DNA of 64,000 nucleotides from Janibacter terrae NBRC 107853 (lineage in GTDB: Bacteria > Actinomycetota > Actinomycetes > Actinomycetales > Dermatophilaceae): contig NZ_BCUV01000007.1 in the NCBI RefSeq assembly GCF_001591405.1, positions 930,001 through 994,000 of the forward strand. Reading direction: 5' to 3'. Shown here piece after piece: positions 39,671 through 56,769 of the stretch. Every line of letters begins with the position of its first letter. Position 1 is the stretch's first letter. The position numbers and the translations under genes were made by a program. Below the pieces are notes generated by a model that was not told the DNA's origin, searched no databases, and saw only the letters and a program-made list of their open reading frames with translations.

Positions 39671-41143
39671 TTGAGCACGCTCGGAAGCTTCATCTGGTCG
39701 ATCGCTGACCAGCTGCGGGGGCCGTACCGGCCGAACCAGTACGGCAACGTCATCCTCCCGCTGACGATCCTCCGACGCCTCGACTGCATCCTCGCCCCCG
39801 ACCGCGAGATGGTCCGTGACCTCGCGGCCAAGTTCGACAACCCCAACCGGCTCAAGGTCGAGGTGAAGAAGGCGACCGGGCGGACCTTCTACAACACCTC
39901 GAACTACTCCTTCGCCAACCTGCTCAAGGACGCCGACGGCCTGGCAGACAACCTCAACGACTACATCGACCGCTTCTCCCCGGACGTCGACGTCTTCGAG
40001 TACTTCGACTTCAAGAAGGAGATCGTCGCGCTCGAGAAGGCCGAACTCCTGCGCGAGGTCGTCAGCTCCTTCGCGGCGATCGATCTGCACCCCGATCGGG
40101 TCTCCAACTCGGACATGGGTGACGCCTTCGAGTACATCATCCGCAAGTTCAACGAGGCCGCGAACGAGACCTCGGGAGATCACTACACGCCCCGCGACGC
40201 GATCAAGTTGCTCGTCGACCTGCTCTTCGCCGAGGAGGACGCCGGCCTGGGCGAGGCCGGCATCGTGCGCACGCTCTACGACCCCACGGCTGGCACGGGC
40301 GGCATGCTCTCGCTCGCCCAGGAGCACCTGCTGGCGCAGAACCCGGACGCGCGGCTGAGCCTCTTCGGGCAGGAGTACAACCCGCAGTCCTACGCCATCT
40401 GCAAGTCGGACATGCTCGCCAAGGGCAACGACCCCACCAACATCGCCTTCGGCAATACCCTGACCGAACCTGCCTTCACCAATCGCCAGTTCGACTTTTG
40501 CATGTCCAACCCGCCCTACGGCGTGGACTGGAAGCAGTACGCGAAGGCGGTCAAGGAGGAGCGCGACCAGGCCGGCCCCTACGGCCGCTTCGCGCCCGGT
40601 CTGCCCGCGACCTCTGACGGACAGATGCTCTTCCTCCTGCACCTCGCGCACAAGATGCGCGACCCGCAGGACGGTGGCGGCCGCGTCGGCATCGTCATGA
40701 ACGGTTCCCCGCTCTTCAACGGCGCCGCAGGCTCGGGCCCCTCGGAGATCCGACGGCACCTGCTGGAAGGCGACCTCGTCGAGGCCATCGTCGCGCTCCC
40801 GACGAACATGTTCTTCAACACCGGTATCGCCACCTACATCTGGATCCTCGACAACTCCAAGATCGACGAGCGCAAGGGCAAGGTCCAGCTCATCGACGGC
40901 ACGTCGTACTGGACGAAGATGCGCAAGAGCCTCGGCTCGAAGAACCGCGAGATCAGCGACGCGGACCGCGCCAAGGTCCTCAAGCTCTACGACGACTTCG
41001 AGGACGCGGACCCGGAGCACTCCAAGGTGCTCCGCAACGAGGACTTCGGCTACTGGACCATCACCGTCGAGCGGCCTCTGCTGGATGACGAAGGGGAGGT
41101 CGTCACCGACCGCAAGGGCAAGCCCAAGCCGGACAGCAAAAAG
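39671..41143 (+). pseudogene. hsdM: hsdM (type I RM methyltransferase), 5' part, IS-disrupted
   Basis: TTG 39671 is the likely start (AGGGG six bases upstream). It encodes 491 residues of an N6-adenine methyltransferase: helical HsdM N-domain, SAM motif DPTAGTGGM at 204-212 and catalytic NPPYG at 280-284. The gene is cut at 41143 by an IS3-family element; reading on into the IS adds nine residues to a stop at 41173. Removing the IS and one AAG target copy joins codon 491 to 42441 in frame, giving a 589-residue HsdM. The missing part is the C-terminal segment that contacts HsdS, so the methyltransferase is probably inactive in this strain. Confidence 0.9.
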
Positions 41144-41212
41144 GGGACTGCTGCACGAATAGGTGACAACTGAACTGGCTTGCCCGACGGGCAGGCTTGA
41201 GAGGATGTCGCT

Positions 41213-41506
41213 GTGCCCAAGCCCTACCCCCGCGAGTTCCGTGACGACGTTGTTCGTGTCGCCAGGAGCCGGGATCCGAAGACCCCGCTGGAGCAGATCG
41301 CGAAGGACTTCGGGATCCACCAGACCACGTTGAACTCCTGGATGCGCGCCGCCGACGTCGAAGACGGCACCAAGCCCGGGATGACCGAGGACCAGAACGC
41401 CCAGCTACGCGAGTTGAAGCGGCGCAACCGGCTCCTCGAGCAAGAAGTCGAGGTGCTGCGCCGGGCGGCTGCCTACTTGTCGCAGGCCAATCTGCCGGGA
41501 AAATGA
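41213..41506 (+). CDS. IS3-family transposase OrfA
   Basis: A 97-residue protein with GTG start. It has a helix-turn-helix (PKTPLEQIAKDFGIHQTTLNSWM near residues 22-44, key part IAKDFGIHQTTLNSW) and a C-terminal leucine-zipper-like helix (LKRRNRLLEQEVEVLRR). OrfA binds the IS ends. It ends in an ATGA overlap with orfB at GGGAAAATGA, a place where IS3 elements often make the OrfAB fusion by -1 frameshift. Confidence 0.92.
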   Translation: MPKPYPREFRDDVVRVARSRDPKTPLEQIAKDFGIHQTTLNSWMRAADVEDGTKPGMTEDQNAQLRELKRRNRLLEQEVEVLRRAAAYLSQANLPGK

Positions 41507-42405
41507 TGTACCCGCTCGTCCGCGAGCTGGCCGTCGACGGGATCCCCGTCACGGTGACGTGCCGGGTACTCAAGATCGCTCGCCAGCCCTACTACCGCTG
41601 GCTCCAGGCGCCGGTCACCGACGCAGAACTGGTCGAGGCCTACCGCGCCAACGCGCTGTTCGACGCCCACAAGGACGACCCGGAGTTCGGGTATCGGTTC
41701 CTGGTCGACGAGGCCGCTATCGCAGGTGAGGCGATGGCGGAGCGGACCGCGTGGCGGATCTGTTCCCAGCTGGGGTGGTGGTCGGTGTTCGGCAAGCCCA
41801 AGCACGGCAAGGCGAAGAAGCCCGGTCCACCGGTCCACGACGACCTGTGCGCCGTGGTCGACAAGCACGGCGTCGTCCGGCACGAGTTCAAGGCTGATGC
41901 CGCGAACGAGTTGTGGCTGTCGGACATCACGGAGCATTGGACCGCGGAAGGCAAGCTCTACGTCTGCGCGATGAAGGACGTCTACTCCAACCGGATCGTG
42001 GGCTACTCGATCGACTCGAGGATGAAGTCGCGACTGGCGGTCGCGGCGCTGAACAACGCGGTCGCCAGGCGCGGCGACGTGGCCGGCTGTGTGGTTCACA
42101 CGGACAGAGGATCGCAATTTCGAAGCAGGAAATTCGTCCACGCACTCAACCGGCACGGCATGGTCGGATCCATGGGCCGCGTCGGTGCGGCCGGGGACAA
42201 CGCGGCCATGGAGAGCTTCTTCTCACTGCTCCAAAAGAACGTCCTCGACCGCCGCGCCTGGGCCACCCGCGAGGAGCTCCGGATCGCGATCGTGACCTGG
42301 ATCGAGAGGACCTACCACCGACGCCGACGCCAGGCCGGCCTCGGACGATTGACCCCTGTTGAATACGAAGCCATCATGACCACGCCCGCCACTCAGGCTG
42401 CGTGA
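41503..42405 (+). CDS. IS3-family transposase OrfB (DDE integrase)
   Basis: A 300-residue rve-type integrase. The catalytic triad is visible: Asp in LWLSDITEHW, Asp in VVHTDRGSQF and Glu in DNAAMESFFSLLQKN (35 residues after the second Asp). An HTH_21-like segment precedes it. Intact, so the element is probably still mobile. Confidence 0.93.
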   Translation: MMYPLVRELAVDGIPVTVTCRVLKIARQPYYRWLQAPVTDAELVEAYRANALFDAHKDDPEFGYRFLVDEAAIAGEAMAERTAWRICSQLGWWSVFGKPKHGKAKKPGPPVHDDLCAVVDKHGVVRHEFKADAANELWLSDITEHWTAEGKLYVCAMKDVYSNRIVGYSIDSRMKSRLAVAALNNAVARRGDVAGCVVHTDRGSQFRSRKFVHALNRHGMVGSMGRVGAAGDNAAMESFFSLLQKNVLDRRAWATREELRIAIVTWIERTYHRRRRQAGLGRLTPVEYEAIMTTPATQAA

Positions 42406-42440
42406 CCCAACCTGTCACCCGTTCGTGCAGCAGTCCCAAG

Positions 42441-42737
42441 CGCGACACCGAGAACGTCCCCTTCACCTACGGACTCGCCCCCAATGACGACCGCTCGCTG
42501 AGGAGCGACGAAGGAGCGTCTCGAAGCGAAGTCATCCAGACCTACTTCGACGCCGAGGTCGCCCCCCACGTCCCCGACGCGTGGATCGACCACGCGAAGA
42601 CGAAGGTCGGCTACGAGATCCCGTTCACCCGTCACTTCTATAAGTACGTGCCACCCCGGCCTCTCGCCGAGATCGACGCCGACCTCGAGAAGCAGGTCGC
42701 CAAGATCCTCGAGCTCTTGCACGAGGTTGAGCAGTGA
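42441..42737 (+). pseudogene. hsdM: hsdM, 3' part, downstream of the IS
   Basis: The frame RDTENVPFTYG...YFDAEVAPHVPDAWIDH...GYEIPFTRHFYKYVPPRPLAEID is the normal HsdM C-terminus, 98 residues plus stop. It continues the reading frame of the 5' part after removal of the IS and one AAG. Without the IS there is no good start codon here, so this fragment is probably not translated efficiently. The stop overlaps the hsdS start (TGATG). Confidence 0.9.
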
Positions 42738-44020
42738 TGGTTGCTTATCCCGACCGCATGGTCCTGGATTCAAAGTGGCTTAACGAAATCCCAGCTCACT
42801 GGCGCCTGGGCCGGCTCGATCAGGTCGCACGTGCATGGCCTAGCAATGTGGACAAGCATTCAGTGGAAGGCGAGCAGGCCGTTCGCTTGTGCAACTACAC
42901 GGATGTCTACAAGAACGCGAGCATCGCCGAAGGTATGGACTTCATGCAAGCGACTGCCTCACGGGAGCAGATCGACAAGTTCCGGCTCGCAGTCGGTGAC
43001 ACGTTGCTAACGAAGGACTCGGAGACGGCCGACGACATCGGGGTTCCCGCGTTCGTCGAGTACGAAGCTGCGGATCTCGTGTGCGGCTACCACTTGTCTA
43101 TCGTGCGACCCGATGCCTTCGTAGCCGACCCCAAGTTCCTGTACTGGGCTCTTGCGGCGCAGCCGACGCTTGGCCAGTGGGCGGTGCTTGCTTCCGGTGT
43201 AACCCGCGTGGGGATCAAGTCTGGGGATCTCGCGAGGGTGGCCCTCGCGCTGCCGCCGTTGGGCGAACAGCGGGCTATCGCTCAATACCTGGACCGAGAG
43301 ACCGCCCGCATCGACACGCTCATCGAGGAGCAGCAGCGCCTGATCGAGATGCTCCGCGAGCGTCGCGTTGCCGCAGTTGAGCGCTCGATCGCGATGCTCG
43401 ACTGGACTGTGCCCTTCAAGTCAGTGGCCACGCTCATCCAGACAGGTCCCTTTGGGAGTCAACTCAAGTCGGACGAGTACGAAGACGGGGGAACGCCGAT
43501 CATCAACCCTTCCCACATGGTTGCAGGCGAGATCGTCCCAGACCCTCGGGTTGCTGTATCCGCACCGAAGGCTCAGGAACTGGGTCGCCACGCTCTGATG
43601 GGAGGCGACCTCATCTGTGCCCGCCGAGGCGACCTCGGAAGGTGCGCGGTCGTCGACGAGTCCTCTGCGGGATATCTGTGCGGGACAGGTTCTGCCTTGG
43701 TGCGCGTCGATCCCGATCGGATAGACGCACCGTTCGCGGCACTGGTCTTCAGTAGCCGCCGAAACCGAGATGCCCTTGCCCTCGCGTCGGTTGGCTCCAC
43801 GATGGACAACCTGAACTCCGACATCATCGGGGCGCTCCGCATTCCGTTGCCCACATTGGCAGAGCAGCGGGAGCTCGTCGCGACGGTGAATGAGCAGACA
43901 ACCAAGATCGACGAACTGATCGCTGAGACGGAGCGGTTCATCGAGTTGTCACGTGAGCGGCGGGCGGCGCTGATCACGGCTGCGGTGACGGGGCAGATCG
44001 ACGTACGAGAGGTGGCGTAA
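42737..44020 (+). CDS. hsdS: Type I restriction-modification specificity subunit
   Basis: A 427-residue HsdS with two target-recognition domains (about residues 12-185 and 225-385), each followed by a conserved helix: PPLGEQRAIAQYLDRETARID and PTLAEQRELVATVNEQTTKID. It sets the DNA sequence recognised by the HsdM2S and HsdR2M2S complexes. It appears intact. ATG 42737 overlaps the hsdM stop; GTG 42734 is possible. Without HsdM it has no partner. Confidence 0.9.
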   Translation: MVAYPDRMVLDSKWLNEIPAHWRLGRLDQVARAWPSNVDKHSVEGEQAVRLCNYTDVYKNASIAEGMDFMQATASREQIDKFRLAVGDTLLTKDSETADDIGVPAFVEYEAADLVCGYHLSIVRPDAFVADPKFLYWALAAQPTLGQWAVLASGVTRVGIKSGDLARVALALPPLGEQRAIAQYLDRETARIDTLIEEQQRLIEMLRERRVAAVERSIAMLDWTVPFKSVATLIQTGPFGSQLKSDEYEDGGTPIINPSHMVAGEIVPDPRVAVSAPKAQELGRHALMGGDLICARRGDLGRCAVVDESSAGYLCGTGSALVRVDPDRIDAPFAALVFSSRRNRDALALASVGSTMDNLNSDIIGALRIPLPTLAEQRELVATVNEQTTKIDELIAETERFIELSRERRAALITAAVTGQIDVREVA

Positions 44021-47000
44021 TGGCTGACCACAACGAGGTGGTCTTCGAGGACGAGATCTGCGCGCACCTCGAGGCGCACGGCTGGCTGTACGCCAAGAAT
44101 GATCAGGGCTACGACCGGGAGCGGGCGCTCTTCCCGGCCGACCTCTTCGCCTGGCTGGAGGAGACGCAACCGACCCCCTTCGCCAAAGCACTGAAGGCCG
44201 CGGGGACCGAGGCGAAGTTCCTCGACGTCCTGGCCACAGCACTCGACAAGCCGCTTGAGCACGGCGGCGGGATGCTCAACATCCTGCGCAACGGCGTCCA
44301 GTTCGTCGGTGGGGGCCGGCTGAAGATGGCGCAGTTCCGCCCCGACACCTCGCTCAACCCGACGACCGTCGAGCAGTACGCGGCGATGCGGGTGCGGGTG
44401 ATGCGTCAGGTGCACTTCTCGACGGCGGACCAGCGCAGCATCGACCTGGTCTTCTTCGTCAACGGGCTGCCGGTGGCGACGGTGGAGCTGAAGACCGACT
44501 TCACGCAGTCGCTGGACGAGGCGGTCAACCAGTACAAGAAGGATCGCCACCCGATCACCAACGGCCGGGTCGAGCCGCTGCTGTCCTTCGGCCACCGGGC
44601 TCTGGTGCACTTCGCGGTCTCCAACGACCTCGCCGCGATGACCACGCGGCTCGAGGGCGACAAGACGCACTTCCTCCCCTTCAACACCGGCAACGAGGGC
44701 GGTGCCGGTAACCCGCCGGCCGCGGACGGCAAGTCCTCGACGGCATATCTGTGGGAACGCGTGTGGGAGAAGCACGCCTGGCTCAACATCATCGGCCGAC
44801 TGATGATCGTCGAGACCAAGGAGGAGTGGGACGTGGCGACCGGGACCTCCCTTCGCCGCACGTCCATGCTCTTCCCCCGCTTCCACCAGTGGGAGGCCGT
44901 GACCAACATCGCCGCGGCTATTGAGGAGGAAGGTGTCGGGCAGCGGTATCTCATCGAGCACTCGGCGGGGTCGGGCAAGACGAACACGATCGCGTGGACC
45001 GCGCACCGGCTGGCACGGCTGCACGTGAACGACGAGAAGGTCTTCGACTCGGTGATCGTGGTCGTCGACCGCACGGTCCTCGACGGGCAGCTGCAGGAGG
45101 CGATCCGGCAGATCGACGGTGGGAAGAAGATCGTGGCGACGATCAGCCCGGAGGACGTGCACAAGGCGGGCGCGACGTCGAAGTCGAACCTGCTGGCGAA
45201 GGCGTTGAAGAACGGTGAGCTGATCATCGCGGTGACGGTGCAGACCTTCCCGTACGCGCTGGACGAGATCCGCAAGGACTCGGCGCTGAAGGGCAAGAAG
45301 TTCGCCGTCATCGCCGACGAGGCGCACTCCTCCCAGTCCGGCCAGGTCTCGGCGAAGCTCAAGGCGGTGCTGACCTCAGAGGAGGTCAAGGACATCGAGG
45401 AGGGCGGGCAGGTCGACGTCGAGTCGGTCCTGGCCGCGGAGATGGGGGAGCGGGCGGAGTCGCCGAACATCTCCTACCTGGCCTTCACCGCGACGCCGAA
45501 GAACAAGACGCTGGAGCTCTTCGGGCGGAAGGGTCCCGACGGTACGCCCGTCGAGTTCCACCTGTACTCGATGAAGCAGGCCATCGAGGAGGGGTACATC
45601 CTCGACGTGCTCAAGGGGTACCAGTCCTACGACACCGCGCTGAAGATCGCCGGCAAGGCCAGTGCCACCGGCGAAGGGGAGGTCGAGGAGGGGACTGCGC
45701 GCAAGGGGTTGATGCGGTGGGTGCAGCTGCACCCGACGAACATCAGCCAGAAGGTGCAGATCATCGTCGAGCACTTCCACGCCAACGTCGCGCACCTGCT
45801 CGACGGCAAGGCCAAGGCGATGGTCGTGACGGACTCGCGCAAGTCCGCGGTGAAGTACAAGAAGGCGATCGATGCCTTCATCGCCAAGCGTGCCGCGGAG
45901 GACGCCTCGTACAACTACCGCACGCTCGTTGCCTTCTCCGGTGGGGTGACGATGGATGAGAACGAGGTGTGGACCGTCGAGTGGGGGCCGGCGCCGAGCA
46001 AGGACGACGAGTTCACCGAGGCCAACATGAACCCTGGCGCCGGCAGTGACCTGGCGGCGGCGTTCAAGGGCGACACGTACAAGATCATGATGGTCGCCAA
46101 CAAGTTCCAGACTGGCTTCGACCAGCCGCTGCTGTCGGCGATGTATGTCGACAAGCGCCTGTCCGGGGTGACCGCGGTGCAGACGCTGTCGCGGTTGAAC
46201 CGCACGCACCGCACCGCTGGTGGGGAGCAGAAGCGCAAGACATTCGTCATCGACTTCGTGAACAAGCCCGAGGACATCCGGCAGTCCTTCGAGCCGTACT
46301 TCACGGCCGCCCGTCTCGAGACCGAGACCGACCCCTATGTGGTGGTGCACCTTGCGACGAAGCTGGCGCACGCAGGGATCTACACCGAGGATGAGGTCCG
46401 CAAGACGGCTGAGCTGTGGGTGCGGCGCAAGGGCAACAACGCGCTGTCGGCGGCGGTGGCGCCGGCGAAGACGGCCTTTGCGAAGCGATACGAGAAGGCA
46501 CTCGAGACCGACGACAAGGTGCTGCTCAACGAGCTCGAACTTTTCCGCAAGGACGTGTCAACGTACGTGCGGCTCTACGACTTCATGAGTCAGATCGTCG
46601 ACTACGGCGACCCGTACATGGAGATGCTCTCGATCTACCTGCGGCTACTCGAGCGGGTGATCAAGGACGAGTCCTGGTCGGCCGACGTCGACCTGTCCGA
46701 CGTCGTGCTCGTCGGGGTCAAGCACACCAAGGCTGCGCAAGCGGACATCGCGCTGACCGGTGACGGAGAGCTGAAGGGAATCAGCGCTGCCGGGTCAGGC
46801 GCGAAGAAGGAGCCGAAGTACGTCGCGCTGCAGGTCGTCATCGACCGGATGAACGACCTGTTTGGCGCGGAGTCCTTCGCGGAGTCGCAGATCAGGGAGT
46901 TCGTCAACGGGCTCGTCGAGCGGCTGCTGGACTACCCCGACCTGGTGGCGCAGACGCGGGTGAACTCGAAGAAGCAGTTCATGGAGTCGCAGGACTTCCA

Positions 47001-47178
47001 AGCCGCTGTCACCGAGGCGGTCGTGGAGAACCAGGACGCGCACAACACCATGGCGGACTACTTCTTCAGTGACGGGCCCGGGGTGGCCGGCGTTGTGGTG
47101 GCCCTTGCTGATGCGTTTTATGAGACGGCGGCGGACCGAGCACCTGCTGTGTCGACGCCCAGAGGGGCTGGCCAGTGA
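44020..47178 (+). CDS. hsdR: Type I restriction endonuclease subunit R
   Basis: A 1052-residue protein. The N-terminal nuclease has the PD-(D/E)xK core (IDLVFF...VATVELK, residues 141-158); the SF2 translocase follows with Walker A SAGSGKT (315-321), DEAH (433-436) and the later motif TGFDQPLLSAMYVDK; the C-terminus binds HsdM. It translocates DNA by ATP hydrolysis and cuts unmethylated foreign DNA when in complex with M and S. Intact here. Start overlaps hsdS (TAATG) and stop overlaps the kinase gene (TGATG). Confidence 0.93.
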   Translation: MADHNEVVFEDEICAHLEAHGWLYAKNDQGYDRERALFPADLFAWLEETQPTPFAKALKAAGTEAKFLDVLATALDKPLEHGGGMLNILRNGVQFVGGGRLKMAQFRPDTSLNPTTVEQYAAMRVRVMRQVHFSTADQRSIDLVFFVNGLPVATVELKTDFTQSLDEAVNQYKKDRHPITNGRVEPLLSFGHRALVHFAVSNDLAAMTTRLEGDKTHFLPFNTGNEGGAGNPPAADGKSSTAYLWERVWEKHAWLNIIGRLMIVETKEEWDVATGTSLRRTSMLFPRFHQWEAVTNIAAAIEEEGVGQRYLIEHSAGSGKTNTIAWTAHRLARLHVNDEKVFDSVIVVVDRTVLDGQLQEAIRQIDGGKKIVATISPEDVHKAGATSKSNLLAKALKNGELIIAVTVQTFPYALDEIRKDSALKGKKFAVIADEAHSSQSGQVSAKLKAVLTSEEVKDIEEGGQVDVESVLAAEMGERAESPNISYLAFTATPKNKTLELFGRKGPDGTPVEFHLYSMKQAIEEGYILDVLKGYQSYDTALKIAGKASATGEGEVEEGTARKGLMRWVQLHPTNISQKVQIIVEHFHANVAHLLDGKAKAMVVTDSRKSAVKYKKAIDAFIAKRAAEDASYNYRTLVAFSGGVTMDENEVWTVEWGPAPSKDDEFTEANMNPGAGSDLAAAFKGDTYKIMMVANKFQTGFDQPLLSAMYVDKRLSGVTAVQTLSRLNRTHRTAGGEQKRKTFVIDFVNKPEDIRQSFEPYFTAARLETETDPYVVVHLATKLAHAGIYTEDEVRKTAELWVRRKGNNALSAAVAPAKTAFAKRYEKALETDDKVLLNELELFRKDVSTYVRLYDFMSQIVDYGDPYMEMLSIYLRLLERVIKDESWSADVDLSDVVLVGVKHTKAAQADIALTGDGELKGISAAGSGAKKEPKYVALQVVIDRMNDLFGAESFAESQIREFVNGLVERLLDYPDLVAQTRVNSKKQFMESQDFQAAVTEAVVENQDAHNTMADYFFSDGPGVAGVVVALADAFYETAADRAPAVSTPRGAGQ

Positions 47179-49064
47179 TGGGCGGCCAAGAGTCTAGGAA
47201 GGGTGACTGGTTCGGTCCCTATCGAACAATCCGTGAGATCGGTCGGGGTGGGTTCGGCAGGGTCTACGAAGCGGAGGACCGACATGGAGCCAAGATCGCT
47301 CTGAAAGTCTTGGACTCTGTGGCGGGCAACTCGAGGTCCGGCCGGGGCCGGTTTTCACGAGAGCTTGCCGCCGCACAACGCGTCGCAAGCCCGCACGTGG
47401 CGCGTGTTGTCGACTCAGGCCTCCACTCGGACCCTCCGTGGATCGCGTACCAGCTCATCAGTGGCGCGACCCTCAAGAAGAAGCTGCTTGAGGGCCCCCT
47501 GCCAGCGGAGCAGGCTGTCGATGCGCTCCTTGCACTGGCTCAGGGGCTGGCTGCCGTCCATGCCGAGGGCCTGGTCCACAGGGATGTCACGCCTGACAAT
47601 GTCATCGTCGACGGTCAGGGGAAGGGGTGTCTGATCGATCTGGGGATCGCTGCGCTCGGGGAGGCCGGGGAATTCACGAGAGAGCAGGTCGGGAAGGTTG
47701 CCTTTCAAGCACCCGAGCAGTGGACTGGTTCGGCTGTCACCCCGGCCGTAGATATCTGGCAGTTCGGAGTCTGCCTGGTCAAGGCAGTCAGTGGCCATCT
47801 GCCGTTTTCGCAAGGGGCCCCCGGTGTAATGCATCAAGCGATCACCCAGAACGAGCCGGACCTGTCCGGTATGCCGACGCCCTTGCGCATTCTGGCGACG
47901 CGGTGCCTGAGGAAGCGGGTGAGTGAGCGACCTTCAGCCGACCGCGTTGTTGAGTTCCTCAGGGGAGTTCGGATCGAGGCTCCCGCGGTAGAACGCGATC
48001 ACCTCCTGACGGCCACTCGTATTGCAGCGGGGGATTTCTACTCGGGGTATCCAAGCATGGCCGACGATGAGTACGACCTGAGGGTCGCGCGACTCAAAGA
48101 GCTTGAAATCGCTAGCCCCGACCTCCGAGATCGGCGGCCTCGGTCCAGGAGGCCCCCCATCTTGCCCCGCGAGTTCGCCGTGATGCGACTCGTGGACGTC
48201 GAACCGCAGGTCACGTTCGGTCCCGTGGAGCTGAGGCCGAAACTGGAGGCAGTGCCTCCGTTCCAGCCGTTTGATGCTGAAAGGGTGACGGGGGTTAACC
48301 AGCGCGACTTACGTGATGGCCGCATCCTGGTGGGAGATGTGGTCGCCGTTCGTCCATTTCGACGGGGCCCGATGGCGGCCGTCGTCGACGGGTGGTTCGT
48401 CGGGTGGCGAGATGGTACCGAGACCCGTGCACGCCTCCCCTTGATGTGTCCGTCCTGCGGGACTCGCCTCGAGTACCGCGAGTCCAAGATTTGGGTCGAT
48501 CGGGTCCTTGTGAAGCCACAAGACTGGTGCCCGAACTCAGCAGCCTGCCCCGAACAAGTGATATGGCGGCTTGCACGTCTGGCAAGCAAGCAGGCTCTGC
48601 AAATCGCATCCCTGCGCGGCTCCGCTGCACGTGCACTGGTGGAATCAGGCGTCCTATCGAACGAGGCCGACCTCTTCGGCCTGACTTCGAAAGCCTTGCA
48701 GGGAATACCAGGGTTCTTCGAGGAGGCCAGCGAGTGCGATCTCGATCCCCCGGCTCGGAGCGGGCGAGCCCCGTCGCAAAGGGCGCGTCGCTTGCTCGAG
48801 GAGTTGGAAAGCGCTCGCACCGCTCCTCTCGAACGGCACCTGGTCGCACTCGGCATCGTTGATCAGATCTGGTCGCACCGGGCGGTTGACCTCAGTCGCG
48901 ACTTCGGCACTTTGAGGGCGATCTACGACGCCAGCGAGGCTAACGCCATCGCTGGCCGAGCCGTTGCCCGAGAAGTTGAGCGATGGTTCCGAGGTCCAGA
49001 CAGTGCTTGGCATCTGCAAATTCTGGATCGATGGAGCGAGGATGGCGTGCAGCTCGGCTGGTGA
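47178..49064 (+). CDS. Ser/Thr kinase fused to ligase-like OB/Zn/HhH module
   Basis: A 628-residue two-part protein. Residues about 12-265 are a complete Hanks-type kinase: G-loop GRGGFGRV, Lys43, Glu62, HRD 134-136 with Asn141, DLG 154-156 and APE 178-180. The rest resembles NAD-dependent DNA ligase LigA without its nucleotidyltransferase core: an Ia-like piece with DDEYD (296-300), an OB-fold (RVTGVNQRDLRDGRILVGDVV), a zinc finger with Cys424/427/451/457, and HhH-like repeats to the end (PLERHLVALGI, RDFGTLRAIYDA). The KxDG lysine of ligases and the BRCT domain are absent, so it should not ligate DNA. The start overlaps the hsdR stop, so it is made with the RM proteins. The role may be DNA-damage or invasion sensing by the HhH part with kinase output; this is inference. 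Confidence 0.8.
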   Translation: MGGQESRKGDWFGPYRTIREIGRGGFGRVYEAEDRHGAKIALKVLDSVAGNSRSGRGRFSRELAAAQRVASPHVARVVDSGLHSDPPWIAYQLISGATLKKKLLEGPLPAEQAVDALLALAQGLAAVHAEGLVHRDVTPDNVIVDGQGKGCLIDLGIAALGEAGEFTREQVGKVAFQAPEQWTGSAVTPAVDIWQFGVCLVKAVSGHLPFSQGAPGVMHQAITQNEPDLSGMPTPLRILATRCLRKRVSERPSADRVVEFLRGVRIEAPAVERDHLLTATRIAAGDFYSGYPSMADDEYDLRVARLKELEIASPDLRDRRPRSRRPPILPREFAVMRLVDVEPQVTFGPVELRPKLEAVPPFQPFDAERVTGVNQRDLRDGRILVGDVVAVRPFRRGPMAAVVDGWFVGWRDGTETRARLPLMCPSCGTRLEYRESKIWVDRVLVKPQDWCPNSAACPEQVIWRLARLASKQALQIASLRGSAARALVESGVLSNEADLFGLTSKALQGIPGFFEEASECDLDPPARSGRAPSQRARRLLEELESARTAPLERHLVALGIVDQIWSHRAVDLSRDFGTLRAIYDASEANAIAGRAVAREVERWFRGPDSAWHLQILDRWSEDGVQLGW

Positions 49065-49401: not shown

Positions 49402-50821
49402 GGTCAAGCCCCGGGTAGTGGTGTAGCGCCTGCGTGTTCCTTCTGGTGGTTCAGGCGGTCAATGCGGGCAGGTTGTCGCCTCCGGTCTCGGGGTCGAGGG
49501 CGGGCACGATGTTGACGCGGCAGCGGGCGAGGACCTCGAGGCCGAGGTAGCGCCGACCTTCGGCCCATTCATCGGTTTGCTCGGCCAGGACCGCCCCGAC
49601 CAGGCGCACGATCGCGGCCCGGTTGGGGAAGATGCCCACGGAGTCGGTACGGCGTCGGATCTCGCGGTTGAGGCGTTCGGCGGGGTTGTTCGACCAGATC
49701 TGGGTCCACACGTCTTTGGGGAAGGCGGTGAACGCCAAGATGTCCGCGCGGGCCGCGTCGAGGTGCTCGTGGACCTCGGGCAGTTTGCCGTCGACGTACT
49801 CCAGCAGCCGCTCGAACTGCGCCTGGACGGCGTCCTTGTCGGGTTGGTCGTACACCGAGTGCAACATCGCCTTCACGGCCGGCCACATGCTCTTGGGCGT
49901 CACGGACATCAGGTTCGCGGCGTAGTGCGTGCGGCAGCGTTGCCACGACGCGCCGGGCAGGTTCGCCGCGATGGCCTCGACCAGGCCCTTGTGGGCGTCG
50001 GAGGTGACCAGCCGGACGCCGGTCAGGCCTCGGGCGGTCAGGTCGGCGAAGAACTCGTTCCACGCCGGACCTGTCTCGGAGGTGGCCACGCGTAGCCCGA
50101 GGACTTCGCGGTGCCCGTCGGCGTTGACCCCGACCGCGATCAACGCGACGGCGTTGATCACCCGCCCGCCCTCGCGGACCTTCATCGTCAGCGCGTCGGC
50201 GGACACGAACGTGAATGGCCCAGCATCGGCCAGGGGCCGGTGGCGAAACTCCTCGACGATCTGGTCCAGATCAGCGGCCATCCGCGACACCTGGGACTTG
50301 CTCAGCGAGTCGATCCCTAGGGTCTTGACGAGCTTGTCCATGCGGCGGGTCGACACGCCAGCGAGGTAGCAGTCCGCGACGACCGTGATCAACGCGGACT
50401 CCGCGCGCTTGCGGCGCTCGAGGAGCCACTCGGGGAAGTAGGTCCCCGAGCGCAGTTTCGGGATTGCGACATCGACGGTGCCGACGCGGGTATCGAGGTC
50501 GCGGTGGCGGTACCCGTTTCGCTGTGCCGCCCGCCCAGGAGTGGCCCGGCCATACTCCGCGCCAACCACGGCATCGGCATCCGCGGACAGCAACGCGTTG
50601 ATCATGGTCTGCAACAGGGAACGCATCATGTCGGGCGATGCTTCGGACAGGGCTTCGCTCAACAGGCCATGAGGGTCGACAATGTGAGGTGCGGTCATCG
50701 TGATGACTCCATTCGAGAGTGCTGTGAGAGGTTCGCTCGAAGGATCACGCGGTGGCCGCACCCATGTCCACTACCGGGACGATGACGGTCACTGCGCTAC
50801 ACCACTATCGGGGACTCAACT
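49402..50821 (-). mobile_element. IS256-family element, copy 1
   Basis: A 1420-base element with imperfect terminal inverted repeats ending in TAGTGGTGTAGCGC. It is flanked by the 8-base target duplication GACCCGAG (49394-49401 and 50822-50829), typical for IS256. The second copy (61823-63242) has the same length in opposite orientation. Confidence 0.92.
49451..50698 (-). CDS. IS256/mutator-family transposase, copy 1
   Basis: 415 residues from ATG 50698 (an in-frame extension upstream lacks support). It is a mutator-type DDE transposase: Asp in FVSADALTMKV, Asp in LVTSDAHKGLVEA, Glu in NNPAERLNREIRRR, and the C..H-type segment WQRCRTHYAANLM. Intact. The protein is identical to copy 2; at 50402 one base differs silently from the matching position 62242. 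Confidence 0.94.
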   Translation of the reverse strand: MTAPHIVDPHGLLSEALSEASPDMMRSLLQTMINALLSADADAVVGAEYGRATPGRAAQRNGYRHRDLDTRVGTVDVAIPKLRSGTYFPEWLLERRKRAESALITVVADCYLAGVSTRRMDKLVKTLGIDSLSKSQVSRMAADLDQIVEEFRHRPLADAGPFTFVSADALTMKVREGGRVINAVALIAVGVNADGHREVLGLRVATSETGPAWNEFFADLTARGLTGVRLVTSDAHKGLVEAIAANLPGASWQRCRTHYAANLMSVTPKSMWPAVKAMLHSVYDQPDKDAVQAQFERLLEYVDGKLPEVHEHLDAARADILAFTAFPKDVWTQIWSNNPAERLNREIRRRTDSVGIFPNRAAIVRLVGAVLAEQTDEWAEGRRYLGLEVLARCRVNIVPALDPETGGDNLPALTA

Positions 50822-51213: not shown

Positions 51214-51972
51214 TCAGAGGGGCACTTCCCAGTCGCTGATGAGTCTGGTTTGCAGCCGCTGGACGATCGCATCCCATCCGCCGGTGAGCAGGAGTGTCCC
51301 GACGATGATCAGCAGGGTTGCGCCGACGACCTGGATCGCGCGCTGGTGTCGTTGCAGCCACGACGAGACCGGGGCCCATCGCTCGTAGGCCGCGGCGATG
51401 AGGATGAAGGGAAGGCCGAGCCCGAGGCAGTAGGCCACGGCGAGAACGACAGCTCGGGTGATCGAGGCGTCGCTGGCGAGGTTGAGCGCGAGGACCGCCG
51501 CGAGGGTAGGGCCCATGCAGGGCGCCCAGCCCAGACCGAAGACGGCTCCGAGGACAGGGGCCCCGGCCAGGCCGGTGGCGGGCTTGATCGGCAGTCGGAA
51601 GGTCCGCTGCGAACCGGCGCCGAGGAAGACAAGGGCCATGAGAATCACCACTACGCCACCGATGCGCATCAGTAGCTCTCGGTGCTCAACGAGCGCGCGG
51701 CCGGCGGTGGCGACGAACATCGAGGCAAGAACGAAAACGAGGGTGAAGCCGAGGATGAACAGCAGTGCGCCCAAGACCATCCGGCCGCGGCTGCGCTTCT
51801 CCAGTGCTACGTCGGACAGGCCGGTGACGTAGCCGAGATAGCCCGGTACGAGGGGTAACACGCAGGGCGTGGCGAAGGAGACGAGCCCGGCGAGGGCCGC
51901 GACGAGCGCCGCGAGAGGCAGAGCCCCGCTGGCGACCTGGTCACTGAGCCCGGTCGTGAAAGCGACGATCAT
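51214..51972 (-). CDS. ccdA: CcdA/DsbD-type thiol-electron transporter
   Basis: A 252-residue membrane protein with about six helices. VSFATPCVLPLVPGYLGYVTG near residues 31-51 and GLGWAPCMGPTLAAVLAL near 147-164 (quoted in part) hold the two conserved Cys-Pro motifs that pass electrons across the membrane. It starts inside the stop of the TlpA-like gene (ATGA), so the two act together: CcdA reduces the extracytoplasmic thioredoxin-like partner. Used in cytochrome c maturation or disulfide repair. Confidence 0.88.
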   Translation of the reverse strand: MIVAFTTGLSDQVASGALPLAALVAALAGLVSFATPCVLPLVPGYLGYVTGLSDVALEKRSRGRMVLGALLFILGFTLVFVLASMFVATAGRALVEHRELLMRIGGVVVILMALVFLGAGSQRTFRLPIKPATGLAGAPVLGAVFGLGWAPCMGPTLAAVLALNLASDASITRAVVLAVAYCLGLGLPFILIAAAYERWAPVSSWLQRHQRAIQVVGATLLIIVGTLLLTGGWDAIVQRLQTRLISDWEVPL

Positions 51973-52562
51973 CGGCCCTCCTCGGCGAGGGTGTCCTCGA
52001 TCAGGCCTTGGAGGGTCGACTGCGTGGTCGCTCCGAGGACCACCGCAGCGATACGACCCTGGCGGTCGAGGACAGCGGTGGAGGGCTGGGTCGTCATTTT
52101 GCCTTGCATGGCGATCGAGGTGGTGCCGGACTTGTCGTAGATCGAGGGCCACGTGAAGCCCCACGTCTTGGCTTGTGCTCTGCCGGTCGCTACGGAGGAC
52201 TCTCGGAAGTTGATCCCGACGATCTGCACCTCCTCCCCCTTCAACTCCTTGTTCAGCGCGACGAGGTGTGGGGCTTCTTTGGCGCAGGGTCCGCACCAGC
52301 TGGCCCAGACGTTGACGACGACGACCTGGCCGCGGTGATCGGCGCTGTCCCACGTCTGGCCGTCTAGCGTTTCACCGGCGAGCTCGACGGGTTCGCCGCG
52401 CTGGGTCTCGTCGAAGGCGGTCACGCTGCCGTCCCCGGATCGATAGCCGAGGTCTTGCTCGTCCTTGGCGCCGGATGAGGAGCACGCGGCGAGACCACCG
52501 GTGGCAGCGATGGCACTGGCCGCGGCGAGGAGACTTCGGCGGGAGGGACAGCGTGCGGTCAT
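51969..52562 (-). CDS. TlpA/ResA-like thioredoxin lipoprotein
   Basis: A 197-residue protein with signal peptide and lipobox LAAC (Cys27), so it is membrane-anchored outside the cell. NVWASWCGPCAKEAPH carries the redox-active WCGPC, and TQPSTAVLDRQGRI the cis-Pro region of the thioredoxin fold. It is a reductant for extracytoplasmic disulfides fed by the coupled CcdA. It is the fifth gene of a Cd-efflux/thiol-redox set on the minus strand. Confidence 0.88.
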   Translation of the reverse strand: MTARCPSRRSLLAAASAIAATGGLAACSSSGAKDEQDLGYRSGDGSVTAFDETQRGEPVELAGETLDGQTWDSADHRGQVVVVNVWASWCGPCAKEAPHLVALNKELKGEEVQIVGINFRESSVATGRAQAKTWGFTWPSIYDKSGTTSIAMQGKMTTQPSTAVLDRQGRIAAVVLGATTQSTLQGLIEDTLAEEGR

Positions 52563-52705
52563 TCGGTCTCATGCTCCTGAGGTTGTCGCCGCGCGTGCGT
52601 GGATGCGCGGCAAGGTATCGGGGTCGTCGTTCGTCAGCGCCGAGGTGGCTGGAGGATGGCGCTCGGCCTCTCGGCGTGATGGCGATTCGGTCCACGGGGC
52701 AGTGA

Positions 52706-53337
52706 TCACAGGAGCGTGACCCAGTAGTCCCAGAACCTGATAGCGATGAGCACGATGATCACGAGGTACCAGGCGGTCAAGACCGCTGCGCGGTACTCGA
52801 TGAGCATCGCCACACCGCGGTGTGCGGGTGAAGCGAGGGAACCCTGATGACGCCGAAGGTTGTGAATGGTGGTGTGCCAGAAGACGGCGATGGTCACGAC
52901 CCACACGACCATGCAATAGGGACACAGTGCGCCGATGACGTACAGGCTCTGGAAGATCAGCCAGTGGATGAACACCACCGCGAGGGTCACCGCGGCTTGG
53001 GTCGCCACCCACAACCATGCACGAAGGCTTGTGGCACTGACCAGGACTGCTCCCAGCATGGCAAGGGCTGCGAACCCGGCGACTCCGATGAGCGGGTTGG
53101 GATGCCGAAGGCGTCTGCCTGCGGGGTGACCATGACCGAGCCGCAGGACAGGATCGGGTTGATGCTGCACGAGGGGACGTAGTCCGGGTTCTTGAGCAGC
53201 TCGATCTTCTCCACGAGCAGCACGACGGCGCAGAGCAGCCCGACCAGGCCCCCGACGAGGTACAGCCAGCCCAGTCCACGTGCCTTGACCGCAGCCGCCG
53301 GGGTGACGACGGCCGGCTCAGTCTTCGATTGCGGCAT
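52706..53337 (-). pseudogene. Vitamin K epoxide reductase family gene, frameshifted
   Basis: The first frame (from ATG 53337, inside the DsbA gene end) gives GWLYLVGGLVGLLCAVVLLVEK, then PSCSINPILSCGS and ADAFGIP. A second frame continues NPLIGVAGFAALAMLGAVLV and ALCPYCMVVWVVT with the CxxC pair. Together they form a normal bacterial VKOR of about 210 residues, but one base is missing near 53098-53102 (minus-strand ATCCCAACCCG). VKOR reoxidises DsbA-type proteins. It is either a real pseudogene or a sequencing error. Confidence 0.8.
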
Positions 53338-53962
53338 CAAGCTTGGTCTCGAAGTCGGCGATGGTGGTCGGCTCGATCTTTTTGCCGTCGAGGAAGAACG
53401 TGGGGGTGCCGGTGACGCCCAGTGTCTGGGCGTCCTTCTTGCTCTGCTCGATGCGCTGCGCGGCGGCGGGGTCCTTCAGGCTGGCGCGGTACTGCTTCAT
53501 GTCCAGCCCCAGCTCCTGGGCATATCCCTCGAAGGTCTTCTCCTTGGACGACTCAGAGTGGCTCCACTCGGTCTGCGTCTCGAAGAGCTTGTCGTGCATT
53601 TCCTCGAACTTGTCCTGTTCACGGGCGGCCTCGGCGGCTAGTGCCGCGTTCATCGAGTTTCCGTGGAGGGGGAGGTATCGCACCACGAAGGTCACGTCGT
53701 TGCCGTATTTCTCTCGCAGGTCTGTCATGACGGGGTGGGCTGCGCCGCAGGCCTCGCACTCGAAGTCGAGGTACTCCACGAACACTGCCTTCTTGCCGGA
53801 GGTCAGGCGGGGGCTGTCATCGCGCACCAAGGGCGCGGACGCCCCGTTTCCGGACCCCGTGGGTGCCGCTTCTTCGCTGGCCCGGCTGAACGTCACCGCA
53901 GCGACCAATGCCACCAGGACCGCCACGATCATGGCCATGGACAGTTTCAGGCTCTTGCTCAT
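53318..53962 (-). CDS. DsbA-like membrane-anchored disulfide oxidoreductase
   Basis: A 214-residue protein with an N-terminal membrane anchor (about residues 7-25) and a DsbA/thioredoxin_4 domain: DFECEACGAAHP holds the CEAC active site, and TGTPTFFLDGKKI the cis-Pro loop. It forms disulfides in exported proteins and would be reoxidised by the VKOR encoded next. It overlaps the cadA stop by four bases. If VKOR is really broken, DsbA here would lack its usual partner. Confidence 0.87.
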   Translation of the reverse strand: MSKSLKLSMAMIVAVLVALVAAVTFSRASEEAAPTGSGNGASAPLVRDDSPRLTSGKKAVFVEYLDFECEACGAAHPVMTDLREKYGNDVTFVVRYLPLHGNSMNAALAAEAAREQDKFEEMHDKLFETQTEWSHSESSKEKTFEGYAQELGLDMKQYRASLKDPAAAQRIEQSKKDAQTLGVTGTPTFFLDGKKIEPTTIADFETKLDAAIED

Positions 53963-55923
53963 CGGGTTCCAATCATCGAAGGGCGCTGCTGGCGCGCAGA
54001 GTAGTCATCGTTTCTGGCCTCAGGCTGGGAATGGCGCTGGGTGCGGATAGCTCGCAAACCGTTGGCGATGACGATGACCTCGGCGACCTCGTGGACCAGC
54101 ACGACCGCGGCCAAACCCAGCACGCCGAACAGAGCGAGCGGGAAGAGGACCGCGATCAGGGCCACGGACAGGACGACGTTTTGGGTCATGATCGCTCGTC
54201 CGCGGCGGGCATGTGCGAGGGCTTGTGGCAGCAGCCGCAGATCGTGGCCGGTGAAGGCAACGTCTGCGGACTCGACTGCAGCGGCGGAACCGCTGGCGCC
54301 CATCGCGATACCGACGGTGGCCGTGGCCAGCGCGGGCGCGTCGTTGATGCCGTCGCCGATCATCGCCGTCGGGGCCGTGTCCATCAAGGCGCGGATGTGG
54401 TCGGCCTTGTCCTGGGGCAGGGTCTCCGCGTGAACCTCTCGGATGCCGGCTTCACCGGCGATGGCCTGCGCAGTGCGAGTGTTGTCACCGGTGAGCATCA
54501 CGGTGGACACCCCCTGCTGGTGCAGGGCGGAGATGGCCTGGGCCGCTTCAGGGCGCAGCTCGTCGCGGATGCCGATCACGCCGCATGCTTGATCGTTGAC
54601 CTCGACCACAATGAGGCTCATGCCTTGGGTGGCCATGGCGTCGGCCTGCCCGCTCAGGTCGTTCGGGGCGACCCAGCGGGGGCTGCCAACGCGTACCCGG
54701 AGTCCGTCCACCAACCCGGTGACGCCGTGTCCGGCGTGCTCGTGGACGTCGCTCGCCGCAGGATGATCTGGTGAGGCAGCGACCACTGCCGCCGCCAGGG
54801 GGTGGGTGCTGGTGGCCTCCAGTGCCGCTGCCAAGGAGAGCACCTCCGCGTCGGTGTGACCGTTGGCCGCGTGCGTGGCCACCACCCGGGGCTCGTTGCG
54901 AGTCAGGGTGCCTGTTTTGTCGAAGGCGACCGTGCGGATCGTCCCGAGTTGCTCGAAGGCTGCTCCGGACTTGATGATCACCCCGAACTTGCTGGCCGAG
55001 CCAATCGCTGAGATCACCGTGACCGGGACCGCGATCGCCAAGGCGCAGGGTGAGGCCGCGACCAGCACCACCAGCGCACGCTCGATCCACGTCTCTGGGT
55101 CGTCCACGACGAACCCGTACGCCGCGATCAAAGCCGCGGCCAGCAGCACCAATGGGACGAGTGGTTGGGCGATGCGGTCAGCCAGGCGCGCACGCTCGCC
55201 CTTGTCCGCGTGAGCCTGCTCGACGAGCTCGACCATCTGGGTCAGGGAGTTGTCGCGCCCGTCGGCGACTGCTGTGATGCGCAACGTGCCCGAGGTGTTG
55301 ACCGATCCGGCCGCGATCTCGTCGCCAGGCGCGACTTCGACGGGGATCGACTCGCCGGTGATTGCCGAGGTGTCCATCCACGAGTGACCCGCCTCGACGA
55401 CGCCGTCCGTGCTGACCCGGTCGCCAGCGCCGACGAGAAGGACATCGCCCCGCCGGACCTGCTCGGCGGGGATCCGCTCGTCCGTTCCCGCTCGTGAAAC
55501 GACAGCGGTTTCCGGGATCAGGGACAACAACGCCCGCAGCCCGTGACGGGCCCGGTCCATGGCGCGGTCCTCAAGCGCCTCGGCGATCGAGAACAGAAAG
55601 GCCAGAGCTGCTGCCTCGCCCAGGTGCCCCAGCAGGACGGCACCCGTACCGGCGATCGTCATCAGCAGGCCCACACCCAGCCGGCCCTGCCCACGCCCCG
55701 TGACTAGGCGGCGGATGGCAGCCGGAGCAAAGGTCCAGGCACCCGCAGCCAAGCCGATCGCGTAGGACAGCACGCTCAGGCCCTCGGCGCCGCCGAATTC
55801 CAGCAGCAGTCCGGTCAGCCACAGCACTCCAGCGGAGGCTGGCAGTGCCAAGCCCTGATCACGCCACCACGGCGCGAGATCCTCAGTCACGGGCCCGTCC
55901 GTTCCGCAGCACACATCACTCAT
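53959..55923 (-). CDS. cadA: Heavy-metal P1B-type ATPase (Cd/Zn/Pb exporter)
   Basis: A 654-residue P-type ATPase: TGES actuator loop (TSAITGESIPVEV), CPx-type motif SPCAL (291-295), phosphorylation motif DKTGT (335-339), HP in THPLAAAVV, and hinge GDGINDAPAL. SPC motif and the adjacent CmtR regulator indicate export of Cd2+, Zn2+ or Pb2+. There is no N-terminal metal-binding domain, only a CC pair at residues 5-6. It starts two bases after the cmtR stop. Confidence 0.9.
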   Translation of the reverse strand: MSDVCCGTDGPVTEDLAPWWRDQGLALPASAGVLWLTGLLLEFGGAEGLSVLSYAIGLAAGAWTFAPAAIRRLVTGRGQGRLGVGLLMTIAGTGAVLLGHLGEAAALAFLFSIAEALEDRAMDRARHGLRALLSLIPETAVVSRAGTDERIPAEQVRRGDVLLVGAGDRVSTDGVVEAGHSWMDTSAITGESIPVEVAPGDEIAAGSVNTSGTLRITAVADGRDNSLTQMVELVEQAHADKGERARLADRIAQPLVPLVLLAAALIAAYGFVVDDPETWIERALVVLVAASPCALAIAVPVTVISAIGSASKFGVIIKSGAAFEQLGTIRTVAFDKTGTLTRNEPRVVATHAANGHTDAEVLSLAAALEATSTHPLAAAVVAASPDHPAASDVHEHAGHGVTGLVDGLRVRVGSPRWVAPNDLSGQADAMATQGMSLIVVEVNDQACGVIGIRDELRPEAAQAISALHQQGVSTVMLTGDNTRTAQAIAGEAGIREVHAETLPQDKADHIRALMDTAPTAMIGDGINDAPALATATVGIAMGASGSAAAVESADVAFTGHDLRLLPQALAHARRGRAIMTQNVVLSVALIAVLFPLALFGVLGLAAVVLVHEVAEVIVIANGLRAIRTQRHSQPEARNDDYSARQQRPSMIGTR

Positions 55924-55925
55924 CG

Positions 55926-56306
55926 TCAGACCCTCTGCTCATCGGCAACCAGCGCAGGTGCAGTCCCGCAACACAACGGCACGTCACAGTTCGCGTCCAT
56001 GCAGGGGACCCCGTCGTCGACCGCCAAAACCACGTCCATCAACGACTCCAACGCCCGAGTCAGATGCGCATCGGCGATCTCGTAACGGGTCCGACGGCCT
56101 TCCGGCGCGGTGATCACGATCCCGCAGCCACGCAGGCACGCGAGATGATTCGAGACATTCGTGCGGCTCAGATCGAGATCGCGGGCCAACTGCGCCGGAT
56201 AGCTCGCGTCCTGCAACAACGACACCAAGATCCGCGCTCGAGTCGGGTCCGCCATCGCCCTACCCAATCGATTGAGCACGTCCAGTCGAGCAGCACTATT
56301 CAGCAT
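55926..56306 (-). CDS. cmtR: CmtR-like Cd/Pb-sensing ArsR/SmtB repressor
   Basis: A 126-residue winged-helix protein closely resembling mycobacterial CmtR: LGRAMADPTRARILVSLL, HLACLRGCGIV and VVLAVDDGVPCMD. The three cysteines (two in LRGCG's region, CLRGC, and one in VPCMD) correspond to the known Cd/Pb ligands of CmtR (Cys57, Cys61, Cys102). It should repress cadA and itself and release DNA on metal binding. A C-terminal Cys-rich extension (CDVPLCCG) is extra. Confidence 0.9.
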   Translation of the reverse strand: MLNSAARLDVLNRLGRAMADPTRARILVSLLQDASYPAQLARDLDLSRTNVSNHLACLRGCGIVITAPEGRRTRYEIADAHLTRALESLMDVVLAVDDGVPCMDANCDVPLCCGTAPALVADEQRV

Positions 56307-56391
56307 TCAGTGACCATACATTGAAGACTGACTTGTGGGCCAGTCGAGCAACGGATGCCAACTGATCGCTCCATGGCGGTAGCATCGCTTC
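56306..56391. promoter_or_regulatory. Divergent promoter-operator, cmtR / arsR-CDF
   Basis: TTCA...TGAA ends enclose a partial dyad at 56306-56325 (TTCAGTGACC ATACATTGAA). On the minus strand TATGGT (56318-56313) is a -10 six bases before the cmtR ATG; on the plus strand TAGCAT (56380-56385) is a -10 six bases before the arsR ATG. Both transcripts look leaderless and the dyad covers the cmtR -10. Confidence 0.5.
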
Positions 56392-56769
56392 ATGACGATC
56401 AATAGCCAGCCTGAAGGTCCGGCTGCGATGGAAGTGTCTGACGCCTGCGCTGCCTTGTTCCATGCCTTGGCCGAGCCCACGCGCTTGGCGCTCCTGAAGC
56501 ACCTCTCCAGTGGGGAGCATCGGGTCCGTGACCTGGTCGACCACATGCACCTTGCTCAGTCGACGGTGAGCAAGCACTTGGCGTGCCTGCGGGACTGTGG
56601 GCTGGTGAGGGTGCGGACCGAGGGCCGGGCGTCGTGGATCTCGTTGGCCGATCCGTCCCGACTGTCTGACCTGTTCGAAAGCGCGGATGCGCTACTGGCA
56701 GCGTCGGGCGCGTCGTTGTCCCTGCGCGAGCACCGTGACCACGACCAACTTGCGACCGAGGAGGTCTGA
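56392..56769 (+). CDS. ArsR/SmtB family metal-responsive regulator
   Basis: A 125-residue winged-helix protein: ALFHALAEPTRLALLKHLSSGEHRV and STVSKHLACLRDCGLVRV. It has CLRDC in the DNA-recognition helix region, the same spacing as CmtR, and His-rich C-terminus (REHRDHDQ). It probably senses a divalent metal and controls the CDF exporter with which it overlaps (TGATG). It is divergent from cmtR, so the two sensors may share the intergenic region. Confidence 0.87.
   Translation: MTINSQPEGPAAMEVSDACAALFHALAEPTRLALLKHLSSGEHRVRDLVDHMHLAQSTVSKHLACLRDCGLVRVRTEGRASWISLADPSRLSDLFESADALLAASGASLSLREHRDHDQLATEEV

Follow-up and report, generated by a model that had tools for sequence, protein, structure and literature searches.

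A Hanks-type Ser/Thr kinase fused to a LigA-derived, adenylation-domain-free body behind hsdR in Janibacter terrae

In the analysed stretch of Janibacter terrae NBRC 107853 DNA (64,000 nucleotides, hereafter the window), an intact open reading frame joins a Ser/Thr kinase to Ia, OB, zinc, and HhH segments derived from the DNA ligase LigA, and it is confirmed as a genuine fusion. Such a fusion of a kinase with a LigA scaffold had been proposed in an initial annotation of the sequence, and the intact frame, Pfam, phmmer, NCBIfam, and Foldseek all agree with it. The domain combination is real, recurrent, and rare: a second member is present in a different genus of the family (genome G313), the gene in the window occupies a variable slot behind the type I restriction gene hsdR, and residues characteristic of LigA have been lost from the C-terminal half, which presumably serves as a regulatory sensor. 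The best explanation, to which a probability of roughly 40% is assigned, is that of a rare, probably acquired kinase in a cargo slot behind hsdR, regulated by a LigA remnant whose partner would not be a nick gripped through LigA's own contacts. If true, this would represent a new type of sensor for bacterial Ser/Thr kinases, in which a replication enzyme with a housekeeping role has been reused, stripped of catalysis, for sensing within a defence locus, and would lead to a directly testable question, namely what the LigA body binds in order to control the kinase.

Architecture of the fusion protein

The reading frame of the fusion runs on the forward strand from an ATG at position 47178 to a stop at 49064 and encodes 628 amino acids, with a GTG at 47175 being the listed start (629-residue translation, whose residue numbers are used here). 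The ATG overlaps the TGA stop codon of hsdR (47176-47178) in the sequence TGATG, so that the fusion could be translated together with hsdR. Positions 47130-47178, behind the point at which DNA homology to most related hsdR genes stops, form the junction between the two genes.

The N-terminal half (47178-47978) is a Hanks-type Ser/Thr kinase domain, matched by Pfam Pkinase over residues 16-259 (3.4e-36; 125.4 bits versus a cut-off of 31.7), and PknE is the solved structure nearest to it by sequence (1.1e-33). The Gly loop, Lys, Glu, HRD, Asn, DxG, and APE motifs form invariant columns between the two fusions, with DxG taking the form DLG in the window fusion and DCG in that of G313. The catalytic residues described in the initial annotation are kept in both kinases. 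A complete kinase domain is likewise present in the Hanks-type kinases PknE, PknB, and StkP, whereas the C-terminal half of the fusion is derived from LigA instead.

The combination of a kinase domain and a restriction neighbourhood is shared with PD-T4-6, MADS MAD6, PglW, and KKP. However, the window fusion remains below the NCBIfam cut-offs for both MAD6 (107.6 versus 460) and PglW (15.3 versus 990). It matches the PADLOC model of PD-T4-6 with an E value of 9.8e-52, but three other kinases, examined as controls, match the same models at up to 1.8e-100; PADLOC kinase labels are therefore uninformative, and the PD-T4-6 label was dropped as evidence of defence. KKP consists of a kinase pair with a phosphatase, whereas no KKP-like set of two kinases and a phosphatase was found among the window neighbours scanned (hsdM, hsdS, hsdR, and the transposase), and neither a kinase nor a phosphatase was found among the neighbours scanned in G313.

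The derivation of the C-terminal half from LigA is supported by searches at several levels. In a phmmer search against the PDB, all seven matches at E ≤ 10 were DNA ligases, the best being Mycobacterium tuberculosis LigA (3sgi, 1.6e-21), and the NCBIfam LigA model matches at 9.5e-31 between its positions 349 and 577 (model length 664), with a score of 103.9 bits that lies far under the whole-protein cut-off of 369. The half begins with a segment resembling LigA subdomain Ia (47988-48143), scoring 20.3 bits versus 10.8 for the best of 2000 shuffles, followed by a LigA-type OB fold (48159-48401) assigned from alignment and predicted fold, a four-Cys zinc ribbon (48447-48548; Cys 425, 428, 452, and 458 in the translation from 47175), and an HhH-type helical region (48549-49061), in which the hairpin glycines are mostly lost. 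The Pfam models for OB (PF03120) and Ia (PF22745) give no match at E ≤ 1 in the window fusion, those for zinc (13.0 bits) and HHH_2 (12.4) score below their cut-offs of 25.8 and 27, respectively, and no other C-terminal domain exceeds its Pfam cut-off. The LigA signatures RTG and [KR]AGDVIP are gone from the window OB fold.

The initial annotation had also stated that the nucleotidyltransferase core is missing, and this is borne out for the adenylation domain with KxDG, for which there is no PF01653 match at E ≤ 1 and the alignment columns are empty in both fusions. To this account the loss of BRCT can be added, since no BRCT match was obtained and the window fusion ends after the HhH region.

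An AlphaFold2 model of residues 263-629 (pLDDT 82.0, pTM 0.72) yielded seven PDB matches at E ≤ 0.001 in Foldseek, all of them LigA (E 7.5e-17 to 1.4e-13, TMq 0.44-0.59). The predicted OB/zinc/HhH fold agrees with the sequence comparisons, but is not independent of them, since the alignment behind the model included LigA rows; in the full-length model (pLDDT 77.8, pTM 0.53) the linker is poorly predicted. With these results, the parts named in the initial annotation can largely be retained: the OB fold as a predicted structure despite the lack of a Pfam OB match, the zinc finger with four of four cysteines in both fusions, and the Ia-type segment well above shuffled sequences, though below Pfam detection. 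As for the HhH DNA-binding repeats, the fold survives and most of the DNA-contact residues do not. In comparison with LigA (NF005932, TIGR00575), the window fusion therefore has the Ia-like segment, the OB fold, the four-Cys ribbon, and the HhH region in common, and differs in having no adenylation domain or BRCT, in the loss of most DNA-contact residues, and in the kinase in front.

Recurrence, origin, and genomic setting

The fusion in G313 likewise contains the kinase and then OB/zinc/HhH in one open reading frame, of 590 codons from a GTG or 563 from an ATG. It is 34% identical to the window fusion overall, with 40% identity between the kinases and 27% between the C-terminal halves over 261 columns. 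Its C-terminal half matches LigA (4.2e-18), and an Ia segment is absent from it (-2.0 bits). Because the same join recurs in another genus of the family, and with both halves being similar in GC3, an assembly artefact is ruled out.

Searches of genome samples, which overlap one another, were performed with a C-terminal profile of two rows, both fusions themselves included. Among the matches listed, the fusions stand out in two of the 186 family genomes, the same two are seen in the 396 genomes of the order sample, and only G000 is seen in the 246 genomes of the class sample, which stops before G313; a third fusion was not found among the matches listed in family, order, or class genomes. Divergent fusions may be missed, since only some candidates are scored per genome (3 to 11 in large genomes) and the counts refer to the matches listed; a class search at E ≤ 1e-30 was too strict to recover even the G313 fusion, and pattern scans require near-exact peptides. 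Two scans of genome contigs gave no fusion and five kinase loci, none fused. Among the matches listed for viral contigs there was no fusion and one weak match (L080), and no listed plasmid record had one place covering 80% of either whole fusion. The C-terminal part alone was matched in 119 plasmid and 70 phage records, mostly named LigA or unannotated; the two of these that were inspected, L078 and L079, are full LigAs. Other candidates for further fusions were rejected as well, since in L156, L157, and L158 a contig end truncates an ordinary LigA; the start is missing from L157 and L158, which nevertheless reach at least model position 739 of 770 and contain part of the adenylation domain. 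Second C-terminal matches were present in G571, G590, G678, G734, G619, G654, G666, and G714 (genus shared with G678), and the four checked, in G571, G590, G678, and G734, proved to be LigA or split LigA. The initial statement that no described protein is known to have this make-up is upheld within a search of open PMC texts, in which no description of a kinase-LigA fusion appeared among the papers listed, and no NCBIfam or Pfam architecture matches it.

The origin of the fusion was considered in terms of GC3 and phylogeny. The kinase and LigA halves have GC3 values of 0.71 and 0.69 in the window, compared with 0.92 for hsdR and 0.96 for the genome's own ligA, and of 0.78 and 0.72 in G313, where the own ligA has 0.93. 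Similar composition of both halves would be consistent with acquisition as one gene, although low GC3 alone is no mark of a foreign fusion, since hsdS in the window is also low (0.74). In a tree of 73 rows, the two fusions pair with each other (97/88) and group with LigAs of the window's class, including Arthrobacter LigA, at 100/98; with each fusion alone, the grouping with class LigAs persists at 100/91 and 99/92 (22 of 44 such rows sampled). A single origin of the two fusions is likely but not proved, owing to the long branches of both. The fusion was probably acquired horizontally.

The window fusion follows the genes of a type I restriction system on the same strand, hsdM (39671-42737, interrupted by an IS3-type insertion from about 41143 to 42438), hsdS (42734-44020), and hsdR (44020-47178), and a Mutator/IS256-type transposase gene (PF00872) lies downstream of it on the reverse strand (49451-50761). 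As hsdM is split by the IS3-type element, the restriction enzyme of the window may be inactive. Related hsdMSR loci are found on Rhodococcus and Gordonia plasmids and in genomes of the family, and twelve of them, six plasmid and six chromosomal, were compared. In their matched parts, five plasmid loci show 81-84% DNA identity to the window and one shows 74%; among the chromosomal relatives, HsdR is 90-93% identical in five and 56% in G396. DNA homology ends at 47129-47130 in seven of the twelve loci and at 47072-47081 in the other five.

What lies behind this boundary differs between the relatives. A defence- or RM-type gene is located within 3 kb behind hsdR in five of the six chromosomal loci (L150-L155), as the next large open reading frame in three, according to a scan of nine hand-picked reading frames; these genes are McrBC-like, OLD/Gabija-like, PD-T7-3, GmrSD-like, and an N6 methylase, with DUF3039 in the sixth locus. 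On the plasmids, the genes annotated behind hsdR in the six loci are for the most part hypothetical, transposase, or other genes; an Abi-family gene and an AAA ATPase occur once each. Given these differing downstream genes, the slot behind hsdR is variable and often, not always, related to defence. A search for the same fusion next to hsdR in other genomes had been suggested in the initial annotation. By tblastn it was detected in none of the twelve related loci, one of which (L127) is too short to tell, breaking off some 330 bases behind hsdR, and the G313 fusion adjoins a type ISP restriction-methylation enzyme, on the opposite strand and with an HNH gene close by. The link between the fusion and hsdR is thus positional only.

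Possible functions of the LigA-derived half

The view that nicks or DNA ends, such as restriction would produce, are still sensed by the LigA body, and that the kinase is activated in this way, corresponds to the sensor role put forward in the initial annotation, and is considered unlikely. Residues R333, T334, V383, I384, G455, G521, and G553 are taken here to be DNA-contacting in the E. coli LigA complex. At these positions, the window fusion has K, L, M, A, R, W, and G, retaining one of seven, and the G313 fusion has H, N, G, A, gap, gap, and A, retaining none, whereas 3 to 7 are kept across 71 LigA rows (44 drawn from the sampled genomes together with two plasmid/phage records, 26 from viral contigs, and E. 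coli), with none below three. Divergence was taken into account through the seven LigAs most distant from that of E. coli (26-28% identity), which keep 3 to 5 by letter; the window fusion is 27% identical to E. coli LigA and the G313 fusion 21%, the latter below the control range of 26% and up. Because the alignment is gapped at 333-334, the individual letters there are less certain than the disappearance of the RTG signature. At 50 columns where at least 85% of the LigA rows agree, the conserved residue is kept 24 times in the window fusion and 15 times in that of G313. Judged by the zinc cysteines and fold on the one hand and the lost contact residues on the other, the LigA body has been kept and its known grip on DNA has not.

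Nick recognition would be favoured by the predicted retention of the LigA fold, the zinc cysteines of both fusions, the restriction genes adjoining both, and an OB-zinc-HhH part that, with 41 basic and 41 acidic residues, is less acidic than its counterpart in the genome's own LigA (33 and 48), although net charge is not decisive as a test of DNA binding. Against it stand, besides the contact residues, the absence of the fusion from the related hsdMSR loci and the missing adenylation domain, whose contacts with the HhH domain close the LigA clamp according to PMC10504179. DNA may be bound through surfaces other than LigA's own contacts.

A further alternative, regarded as improbable, is that the Ia segment binds NAD+ or NMN, and that the kinase reads an NAD+ status altered by phages or NADase defences. 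At positions 22, 23, 32, 35, and 36 (E. coli numbering), which are presumed to form the NMN-binding set of LigA Ia, the window has F, Y, D, Y, and D, all within the range seen in the 70 LigA rows that are ungapped there, F at 22 being found in 4 of the 70; this agreement argues for the proposal. So does the occurrence of solo Ia domains in 81 phages, for which a role as NAD+ sensors is proposed in PMC9503650; like the window fusion, these proteins have Ia without the ligase core, while the window Ia is part of a kinase fusion. However, the loss of the adenylation domain removes one half of the NAD+ site, and Pfam does not pick up the weakly matching Ia segment. Moreover, with no Ia in the G313 fusion, NAD+ sensing is not the common function, although it may be a trait of the window copy.

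The genomic setting bears on two other proposals. Regulation of the adjoining type I enzyme through phosphorylation of HsdR, HsdM, or HsdS would fit the overlap between the start codon of the fusion and the stop codon of hsdR, but is very unlikely in view of the twelve related loci in which the fusion was not detected, the unrelated single-chain enzyme on the other strand in G313, and the interrupted hsdM of the window. A decaying passenger with no selected function would account for the rarity of the fusion, the eroded LigA residues, and the insertion sequences in hsdM and downstream; yet the kinase catalytic residues and the four zinc cysteines are kept in both fusions at 34% identity, and the frame is open throughout, leaving this proposal with a slim chance of being correct.

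The preferred reading, a kinase in the cargo slot regulated by a LigA remnant, would operate as follows. The LigA body would bind a partner other than a nick held through the DNA contacts typical of LigA; a protein of replication, of repair, or of a phage is the most likely candidate. Binding would release or direct the kinase, and the targets that it then phosphorylates would bring the phage or the cell to a halt. A precedent for the trigger logic of such a system, not for its parts, is provided by KKP, in which the T4 protein Gp59, a phage replication protein, triggers defence-kinase toxicity (PMC11341870). The occurrence of the fusion twice, in different genera and both times near restriction genes, supports this explanation, which is limited by there being two members only, 34% identical. 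A more specific version, in which a defence kinase uses a hollowed-out host replication enzyme, devoid of its chemistry and its hold on nicks, as a bait or a ligand-binding sensor, so that protein phosphorylation is triggered by phage takeover of replication or ligation or by a change in NAD+/NMN, is possible but doubtful.

Some further observations concern the surroundings of these loci. Directly before the G313 fusion, on the same strand, are a DUF6119 gene and an open reading frame of 396 aa (L014:16191-18949), which may be partners of the fusion; the 396-aa frame has no Pfam or PADLOC match, and a single, unrelated mention of DUF6119 was found in the literature. In the window, hsdM is split while the reading frames of hsdS, hsdR, and the kinase gene remain open, and the hsdM parts are contiguous in the Rhodococcus and Gordonia plasmid relatives. 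On one such plasmid, pRHL3 of Rhodococcus jostii, an annotated DNA ligase gene is located a few kb upstream of the related hsdMSR genes (L128:2012-2983). Beyond the transposase gene of the window, positions 51214-57704 contain reading frames that resemble, by eye, genes for CcdA/thioredoxin-type redox proteins, a DsbA-like protein, a heavy-metal P-type ATPase, regulators of the ArsR type, and a cation diffusion transporter, which suggests a putative metal-resistance segment.
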